From assembly GCA_024278275.1 (NCBI GenBank), contig JAJRTN010000063.1, positions 1 to 32,559 of the forward strand: DNA of 32,559 nt, given 5' to 3'. Source of the stretch: Candidatus Hydrogenedentota bacterium (GTDB taxonomy: Bacteria; Hydrogenedentota; Hydrogenedentia; Hydrogenedentales; JAJRTN01). A model generated the notes under the pieces. It had not been told where the DNA came from. It made no database searches and saw only the letters and a list, made by a program, of their open reading frames with translations. This document shows, piece by piece, positions 6,910 through 8,924 of the stretch (position 1 is the first letter of the stretch; each line of letters starts with the position of its first letter). The translations under genes were made by a program, and so were the position numbers.

Positions 6910-8106
6910 CTATTCCATCAGGTCGCGTTGGATCACAGCGCCGGGCCGGGTGGTGGTATGGGGCCACAACTTTCGCCCGCCGTAGATGCAGGTGTGGATG
7001 CCCGTGTGTACCCCGTCCCCCACGATGGCCCCCAACTTCCGGCGGCCCGTGTCCAGCAGCACGCCGCCCACCATGGACCGGTGATTCCTGCCGTCATGCC
7101 GGAAGTTCGCCGTCACCGTGCCGCAGCCGAAGTTCACCTGTTCCCCGAGCACGCTGTCGCCCACGTAATTCTGGTGGGGCGCGGCGGCCCGCTCCATGAA
7201 AATGGCGTTCTTGATTTCGCTGCCCTGTCCCACCTTCCCATGATTTCCAATGGAGGTTCCGGGGCGAAGATAACAATTCGGGCCGATAGTACAGTGATCA
7301 CCGATAAGTACCGGTCCTTCGATCACCACCCCGGGCTTAATCACCGACCCCGCGCCCACGGCGACCGGCCCCGACAAGTGGGCCTTTTCGCTCACCTGGC
7401 CATGGCGCAAGGGCTCGAGGAAGTTTTCCAGGAAATAGGCATTGGCGTCCAGCAGGTGCCAGGGATAACCAATGGGCAGCCAGTAGCCTTCCATCTCGAC
7501 CACGCGAAAGACGCCCCGATCCGCAAGCATCTGGATCGCGGAAGTAATCTCGATTTCGCCCCGTTCGGAAGGAGCGGTGCTGCGAAGCATGTCGAAGATG
7601 GACGGTGAAAAATGGTAGGCCCCCACGTTCGCCAAATGGGAGAACACCTCGACCGGCTTTTCCACCAGTCTCACGACGCGGTCCCCTTCGGTGACCTCGT
7701 AGATACCGTAGAGCTGGGGATCCTCGACCTCCTTGACCAACGCTGAATCCACGGTGGCCGCCAGCCGCGCCAGGTCGGCGGGATCGAAAAGATCATCCCC
7801 GTTCATGGCCAGGAACGGTCCGTCGATCACTCTGGCGCACTGCAAGATGGCATGGCCCGTTCCCTTTTGCTCCTCCTGCATGACATATTCGATGGCAAGC
7901 CGCCCGAAGCGGTCGCCCAGGCGTTCCCGGATCATCTCGTGCCGATAGCCGACCACCAGCACCACGCTCTCCACCACCTCCGGCAGCGCTTCGAGCTGGT
8001 GCTCGATAATGGGGCGGTTTGCCACGGGGAGCAGCGGCTTGGGCCGCGTGAGGGTAAGGGGGTAGGTACGCGTGGATTTCCCCGCGGCCATGATGACGGC
8101 TTTCAT
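6910..8106 (-). CDS. Bifunctional sugar-1-phosphate nucleotidylyltransferase / acyltransferase (archaeal-type GlmU-like)
   Basis: 398 aa from the ATG at 8104-8106, which has a GGGAGG ribosome site; the open frame continues upstream but without family resemblance. The N-terminal half is a nucleotidyltransferase domain with the signature MKAVIMAAGKSTRTYPLT and the PKPLLPVANRP segment (residues 1-35), followed by NGDD for metal/nucleotide binding. The C-terminal half (about 240-390) is a left-handed beta-helix of hexapeptide repeats, as in acyltransferases. The layout matches the archaeal-type GlmU family (UDP-GlcNAc pyrophosphorylase with glucosamine-1-phosphate acetyltransferase) and related dTDP/UDP-sugar enzymes. 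The product would be a cytoplasmic UDP-sugar precursor for peptidoglycan or LPS. The exact substrate is inference. Confidence 0.85.
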   Translation of the reverse strand: MKAVIMAAGKSTRTYPLTLTRPKPLLPVANRPIIEHQLEALPEVVESVVLVVGYRHEMIRERLGDRFGRLAIEYVMQEEQKGTGHAILQCARVIDGPFLAMNGDDLFDPADLARLAATVDSALVKEVEDPQLYGIYEVTEGDRVVRLVEKPVEVFSHLANVGAYHFSPSIFDMLRSTAPSERGEIEITSAIQMLADRGVFRVVEMEGYWLPIGYPWHLLDANAYFLENFLEPLRHGQVSEKAHLSGPVAVGAGSVIKPGVVIEGPVLIGDHCTIGPNCYLRPGTSIGNHGKVGQGSEIKNAIFMERAAAPHQNYVGDSVLGEQVNFGCGTVTANFRHDGRNHRSMVGGVLLDTGRRKLGAIVGDGVHTGIHTCIYGGRKLWPHTTTRPGAVIQRDLME

Positions 8107-8221
8107 GAGTAACCTCCCGGGATCGCGCGGCGTTTCCGCGTGCCTGCAATCCCATTCCCCGGCATGGTATCGAACCCGGCTTCCATGCCGCAATACCCCG
8201 GCGGTCGGTCCTGAAACGGTC

Positions 8222-8250
8222 TTGACACAAGCCGCCAAACGTGATTAAAT
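8222..8250 (+). promoter_or_regulatory. Sigma-70-type promoter of lexA
   Basis: A perfect TTGACA (8222-8227) and TTAAAT (8245-8250) are separated by 17 bp. The predicted start is near 8257, inside the palindrome that overlaps it. Confidence 0.7.
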
Positions 8251-8254
8251 ATGC

Positions 8255-8270
8255 CTGAATAATAGTTCAG
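8255..8270. promoter_or_regulatory. Candidate LexA operator (SOS box) at the lexA promoter
   Basis: CTGAA-N6-TTCAG is a perfect 16-bp inverted repeat beginning 4 bp after the -10 element and covering the transcription start. Its position is ideal for autorepression by LexA, which is the rule for lexA genes. The sequence differs from the E. coli (CTGT-N8-ACAG) and Bacillus (GAAC-N4-GTTC) boxes, so it would be a lineage-specific operator. I noticed no second copy elsewhere in the window. Confidence 0.6.
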
Positions 8271-8306
8271 CTACCGGGCGTTTCAATCCATTGGAGACCC
8301 AAAGAG

Positions 8307-8924
8307 ATGGCCAAGGGCCTTACACAACGCCAGCGGAAGATTCTGGATTTCGTTATCGAGTGTATCAGGGATCGGGGTTGTCCGCCCACCATCGCGGAAA
8401 TCTGCGATGAATTCGGCATGGCATCGACCAACGGCGCCCACGACGCCCTGGTGGCGCTGGAAAAAAAGGGTTATATCGAACGGACTTCCAAGGCGCGGGG
8501 AATCCGCATCACGGAAAAGGCGGCGCCGGGGCTTTATCAAAGCGACGTGGGGGTCTTGCCCCTCGTGGGCCGCGTCGCGGCCGGACAACCCATCCTGGCC
8601 GAGGAGAACATCGAGGGCCATGTCCCCGTCACCGCCTCCCTGGCCCGGGAGAGCGCCTATTGCCTGCGGGTCTCGGGCGACAGTATGATCGAGGACGGCA
8701 TCCTCGACGGCGACGTGATCATCGTGGACCAGGGCCGCGAAGCGCGCCGGGGCGACGTGGTGGTGGCGCTGGTGGACGACGAGGCGACGGTGAAGCATTA
8801 TCATCCCCACGGCGCGGAGGTGGAGTTGCGGCCCGCGAACGCCGCCATGAAGCCCATGCGCTACCCCAGCCACGCGGTGCGCCTCCAGGGGGTGGTGGTC
8901 GCGTTACAGCGCGTGATTCATTGA
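8307..8924 (+). CDS. lexA: LexA SOS repressor / self-cleaving S24 peptidase
   Basis: 205 aa, the normal LexA length. LexA represses DNA-damage genes and cleaves itself when RecA filaments form. The N-terminal winged helix-turn-helix (residues 1-70) contains TQRQRKILDFV and the recognition region STNGAHDALVALEKKGYI. The cleavage site is Ala92-Gly93 in GRVAAGQP. The catalytic dyad is Ser126 (SGDSM) and Lys163 (EATVKHYHP). All self-cleavage residues are present. The recognition helix is unlike the E. coli one, in keeping with a different operator. The gene stands alone, with the kdsD-like gene following behind a separate promoter. Confidence 0.95.
   Translation: MAKGLTQRQRKILDFVIECIRDRGCPPTIAEICDEFGMASTNGAHDALVALEKKGYIERTSKARGIRITEKAAPGLYQSDVGVLPLVGRVAAGQPILAEENIEGHVPVTASLARESAYCLRVSGDSMIEDGILDGDVIIVDQGREARRGDVVVALVDDEATVKHYHPHGAEVELRPANAAMKPMRYPSHAVRLQGVVVALQRVIH

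Follow-up and report, generated by a model that had tools for sequence, protein, structure and literature searches.

What recognizes the inverted repeat that stands in front of the lexA gene at this locus, and does it mark a damage response shared by the phylum? The window analyzed here, a stretch of 32,559 nucleotides, carries CTGAATAATAGTTCAG at positions 8255-8270, 36 bp upstream of the lexA ATG. The preliminary description called this site a perfect 16-bp palindrome. Perfect symmetry holds for the 5-bp arms, but of the three central pairs just one is complementary (A8262-T8263). The exact pattern CTGAA-N6-TTCAG occurs a single time in the 32.6-kb window, and none of 100 dinucleotide-preserving shuffles contained an exact match. 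When up to two mismatches were allowed, six matches were found as compared to 7.5 expected; it is thus the exact site alone that is distinctive. The lack of any excess at two mismatches would suit a palindrome that arose in the promoter region by chance, but conservation refutes this explanation, to which we give practically no credence: every one of the 27 genomes in which a full-length primary lexA was found has the box ahead of that gene, while arms with permuted letters reach at most 7. The features of the locus are collected in Table 1.

Table 1. Predicted regulatory and coding features of the lexA locus (window coordinates).
Feature	Position	Strand	Basis
LexA operator (SOS box) CTGAA-TAATAG-TTCAG	8255..8270	.	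predicted; conserved before lexA in 27/27 genomes
Inferred -35 element of lexA, TTGACA	8222..8227	+	sequence; TTGACA/TTGACT at the same distance in relatives
-10 element TTAAAT, weak match, inferred; 17-bp spacer	8245..8250	+	sequence
Possible ribosome-binding site GGAG	8293..8296	+	sequence only
lexA, 205-aa repressor/autoprotease	8307..8924	+	TIGR00498; PF01726 + PF00717
Recognition-helix region STNGAHDALVA, residues 40-50	8424..8456	+	alignment to E. coli LexA
Autocleavage site Ala92-Gly93	8580..8585	+	alignment to E. coli LexA (VAAGEP)
Catalytic Ser126	8682..8684	+	alignment to E. coli LexA (GMSMKD)
Catalytic Lys163	8793..8795	+	alignment to E. coli LexA (EVTVKRL)

The box begins 4 bp past the putative -10 hexamer, which itself lies 17 bp after TTGACA, and should thus cover the transcription start, predicted near 8257, as had been proposed for an intact lexA gene. 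TTGACA or TTGACT lies exactly 33 bp upstream of the box at 15 of the 27 lexA loci, and many relatives have TTAAAT, TTCAAT, TTTAAT, or TTGAAT at the -10 position. A promoter scan of the window did not list the TTGACA-17-TTAAAT pair of lexA because its rule demands an A at the second position of the second hexamer. Two further elements were seen nearby. A partial second site with two mismatches (CTGAAACGGTCTTGAC, 8211-8226) overlaps the lexA -35 element. On the minus strand, a promoter-like TTGAAA-16-TATTAT (8259-8286), whose second hexamer falls within the box, leads away from lexA and toward a sugar-1-phosphate nucleotidylyltransferase gene (6910-8115, minus strand), which LexA might repress as well.

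The encoded protein is a whole-length member of the LexA repressor family, scoring 205.3 bits against TIGR00498 (cut-off 110.95), and alignment to E. coli LexA (chain 7b5g_A) places both the Ala-Gly cleavage site and the Ser/Lys dyad, so the gene is intact as first described. A profile search found lexA in a single copy in this genome. The nearest named lexA genes are those of Candidatus Hydrogenedentota, with 77 to 45 percent identity, and the window LexA forms one clade with the Hydrogenedentota LexAs (support 100/99); on this basis the genome is assigned to that phylum. The recognition helix of the window LexA diverges from that of E. coli LexA, as had been noted, and also from its relatives: STNGAHDAL in the window as compared to mostly STNGVNDHL elsewhere, an AHDAL for VNDHL change that is accompanied by no visible change in the box arms.

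If the repeat is a LexA operator, it should recur before lexA in relatives and before other SOS genes. Thirty related genomes, the window's own included, were compared. Upstream of lexA, the box was found at zero, up to one, and up to two mismatches in 18, 26, and 27 of the 27 loci, as compared to maxima of 0, 2, and 7 for 59 letter-permuted versions of the arms. The corresponding counts were 0, 19, and 23 of 25 loci for recA (permuted maxima 0, 1, and 8), 2, 11, and 16 of 20 for dinB (1, 2, and 5), and 17, 21, and 25 of 25 for a Hel308-like helicase gene (1, 4, and 5). When gap lengths of 3 to 9 were compared, the signal appeared at gap 6 only, with two loci at most for gaps 3, 4, 5, 7, 8, and 9. 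Among ten named Hydrogenedentota lexA loci, seven carry the exact box, two have one mismatch, and one has two; this named set overlaps the larger one, since identical upstream DNA shows that some of its loci come from genomes already counted there (L013 from G010, L016 from G029, L021 from G006). In the recA copies the outer left base is mostly G (GTGAA-N6-TTCAG). No box was found before recA in G024 and G012 or before dinB in G003, G009, G016, and G027, and the dinB copy of G029 is poor.

These counts refer to defined sets. The lexA set leaves aside two paralogs that lack the box (L188 of G022 and L192 of G003), the UmuD-like L190, and second copies in G024 and G014; G008 and G017 gave no lexA match in the profile search. 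The recA set omits three cut genes (L129, L130, L133) and two ImuA-like ones (L131, L132), the helicase set L250, cut before its start, and the weak matches L255-L258, and the uvrA set L299, L310, and L312-L315. The dinB, umuC, and imuB genes were separated by profile score among 30 PF00817 matches. Ties affect the collection of 91 sites at three loci, recA in G006, recA in G023, and lexA in G001, where a different site with the same score was taken.

The umuDC operons and imuAB cassettes extend the list of candidate targets. Within 1-1.5 kb upstream, all three umuDC operons carry the box ahead of umuC, and five of the seven imuAB cassettes carry it ahead of imuB, all five exactly. The genes imuA and imuB, suggested at the outset as places to look for the motif, are thus borne out in relatives only; neither imuB nor dnaE2 was seen in the genome of the window, where a single Y-family polymerase and a single DnaE were found. 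The imuB cassettes of G003 and G024, which lack a CTGAA box, each adjoin a LexA paralog (L192, on C84 of G003, and G024 C88:147223); these paralogs may control the cassettes, and the paralog beside such a cassette probably has an operator of its own. For uvrA the box is patchy: it was found at up to one mismatch in 6 of 24 loci (permuted maximum 1) and at up to two in 7 of 24 (permuted maximum 8), with none of 119 tiles of uvrA coding DNA holding a site at one mismatch. We therefore rejected uvrA as a core regulon member.

In the genome of the window itself, candidate boxes precede recA (GTGAACGTTTATTCAG, C138), dinB (CTGAATAAATTATCAG, C45), ruvAB (CTGAACGTGTGTTCAG, C128), the Hel308-like helicase gene (CTGAACATATATTCAG, C3), and a gene for an MrfA-like helicase with an MZB domain (PF09369, MrfA zinc-binding), where CTGATGTTATATTCAG lies just ahead of the likely start (C132:8995-9010, L138). 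The uvrA copy, CTGAACATATATTCGG (C134), is about 270 bp ahead of the likely ATG (-313 from the profile match). Exact matches are barely enriched, at eight as compared to two for the reversed control, and with three of the eight in coding sequence (C7, C102, C197) they were rejected as stand-alone proof. A one-mismatch search gave 76 matches as compared to 45 for its control. The tighter pattern STGAW-N6-WTCAG gave 26 forward matches as compared to four for the reversed pattern. The tighter-pattern search marked 36 distinct places; six are the promoters of lexA, recA, dinB, ruvAB, and the two helicases, and genomic context was read for part of the other 30. Two more of the eight exact matches were set aside as probably unrelated and probably due to chance or to another regulator: one on C135 before a LacI-type gene, whose AACGTT centre resembles that regulator's own operator, and one on C84, which has a mixed centre and is separated from gapA by about 105 bp. 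A further candidate site, GTGAATGTTCGTTCAG (C196:82888-82903, L194), is found about 50 bp upstream of a small gene whose product resembles a Rieske-type ferredoxin, as judged by the translation alone.

At the level of sequence, then, the marks of an SOS box are found: a dyad site lies in the lexA promoter in 27 of 27 genomes, and it also lies before recA and other damage genes. The operator reading is strongly supported by comparative genomics, and 8255-8270 is very probably the LexA operator of lexA and a copy of a Hydrogenedentota-wide SOS box, CTGAA-N6-TTCAG. The outcome that the preliminary description named as contrary to it, a motif absent upstream of lexA in relatives and of other SOS genes, was looked for and not found.

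From this arrangement we infer where transcription starts, that LexA binds the box and represses the genes behind it, and that DNA damage induces them. A LexA dimer would contact one CTGAA half-site with each subunit and, sitting on or just past the -10 element, would block RNA polymerase; lexA would thereby repress itself, as we propose. Upon DNA damage, RecA filaments would stimulate LexA to cleave itself at Ala92-Gly93 and so release the regulon, which in the genome of the window would comprise lexA, recA, dinB, ruvAB, and the Hel308-like helicase gene, probably with the MrfA-like helicase gene and uvrA, and which in relatives that carry them would include umuDC or imuAB. In a different arrangement, another damage-responsive regulator would bind the palindrome and LexA would play a small role. 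Myxococcus xanthus lends this some plausibility: its LexA has just five genes under direct control, and most SOS genes there answer to other pathways (PMC9705874). We regard such a regulator as very unlikely here: the box is two-fold symmetric and most constant before lexA itself, and its outer base pair changes in one family, f7, where the LexA recognition helix has changed as well.

That family, made up of G006, G013, G019, and G025, shows GTGAA-N6-TTCAC before recA (4/4), dinB (3/3), and the helicase gene (2/2), and GTGAA-N6-TTCAG or the same with a TTCAT arm upstream of lexA (4/4). Its LexA helix reads STNGVVGHI or STNGVAGHI. While a box shift paired with helix changes is useful material on how LexA changes specificity, f7 is one clade and represents one event, which makes it a lead rather than proof that box and helix vary together.

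After lexA, the predicted target that carries the box most constantly appears to be the Hel308-like helicase gene (L229-L254, among them C3:35263-37863 of the window's genome), and this link looks new. In 21 of 25 loci the box plus one base makes up the exact 17-bp spacer between TTGACA-like and TATAAT-like hexamers. The protein shares the DEAD, Helicase_C, and archaeal helicase domain 4 architecture of Hel308/HelQ (NF002654, NF040935), and differs from it in an additional C-terminal winged-helix (Trans_reg_C) match, in the LexA box upstream, and in its scores. The winged-helix match narrowly misses the cut-off in the protein from the genome of the window (25.9 as compared to 26.2) and exceeds it in four of five relatives tested. 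Since the protein scores 276.7 bits against NF040935 (cut-off 1200) and 368 bits against NF002654 (cut-off 887), "Hel308-like" is the right wording. Hel308/HelQ has been characterized in archaea, human, and C. elegans, where the part of the review consulted ties it to blocked forks and recombination intermediates (PMC4999840); within that part, SOS occurs in a reference title only, and a search of the open-access literature found no link between Hel308 and LexA. That a predicted LexA box stands before this gene at all 25 loci suggests a part in bacterial DNA damage repair for a kind of helicase known from work on archaea and animals.

How, then, does this box relate to those already described? 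The SOS box of E. coli and other gammaproteobacteria is CTGT-N8-ACAG, and the DinR box of Bacillus and other Firmicutes is GAAC-N4-GTTC. The initial view that the site matches neither held up: both exact forms are absent from all 27 lexA and all 25 recA upstream regions, the E. coli form occurring in 1 of 20 dinB and 1 of 25 helicase regions and the Bacillus form in 0 of 20 and 1 of 25 (1 of 97 overall). Parts of each are nonetheless recognizable. The outer CTG-N10-CAG is common to the E. coli and Hydrogenedentota boxes, CTGTA half-sites occur in some relatives, and in G002 the box before the helicase gene, CTGTAAAAATATACAG, matches CTGT-N8-ACAG exactly, but both half-sites have A rather than T as their fourth base in 78 of the 91 Hydrogenedentota sites. 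The inner GAA-N6-TTC frame is common to the Bacillus box, and the window site also has the G before TTC; Hydrogenedentota boxes do not, however, require the C and G that the Bacillus box has within the GAA/TTC core.

Taken together, we find it moderately probable that a composite box, E. coli-like outside and Bacillus-like inside, governs the SOS response across the phylum, with a winged-helix Hel308-like gene as the most constant target after lexA and the box set in its 17-bp spacer, and that the one family shifted to GTGAA-N6-TTCAC with a changed helix shows LexA specificity caught in the act of changing. The titles and abstract openings of the open-access literature yielded no prior report of an SOS response in Hydrogenedentota. 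The symmetric phylum-wide consensus, the GTGAA-N6-TTCAC variant of one family, and the helicase target look new. They provide a defined and testable SOS motif with a target list for a little-studied phylum, represented here almost entirely by metagenome bins, and a box that merges parts of two textbook boxes is useful for studying the evolution of LexA specificity.

LexA boxes vary strongly among bacterial groups, with 17 distinct motifs reported by 2021 in the part of the survey consulted (PMC8565304). The nearest published one is that of M. xanthus, CTRHAMRYBYGTTCAGS (PMC9705874), which precedes lexA and has the arms and half-site spacing found here (CTRHA-N6-TTCAG). When the window site is extended by one base, 14 of 17 positions fit this consensus by hand count, the three that are off being central. 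The helix STNGVNDHL is likewise common to most Hydrogenedentota LexAs and to five of six Myxococcota ones (L022, L028, L031, L045, and L067, but not L041). It could well be, although we lean slightly the other way, that an ancestral Myxococcus-type box was kept by LexAs with this helix and that the Hydrogenedentota form is merely more symmetric. This reading opposes the term "lineage-specific" of the preliminary description and not the identification of the site as a LexA operator, and the confidences we attach to the several readings do not add up to one. The Myxococcota lexA upstream regions, however, retain GTTCAG and lack a CTGAA left arm, several of them with two GTTCAG copies 18-31 bp apart; in the tree, Hydrogenedentota and Myxococcota LexAs fall into clades of their own, with no support for a sister relation; and the window helix is itself not STNGVNDHL. 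The Hydrogenedentota box further differs from that of M. xanthus in its symmetric CTGAA-N6-TTCAG form and A/T-rich centre, and classical repair genes are among its candidate targets, while few genes are under the direct control of LexA in M. xanthus. The arms and spacing are thus shared beyond the lineage, while the symmetric, phylum-wide consensus appears to be its own. Given the likeness to M. xanthus in both box and helix, the Hydrogenedentota box is best filed among the known LexA motifs, near the Myxococcus type.
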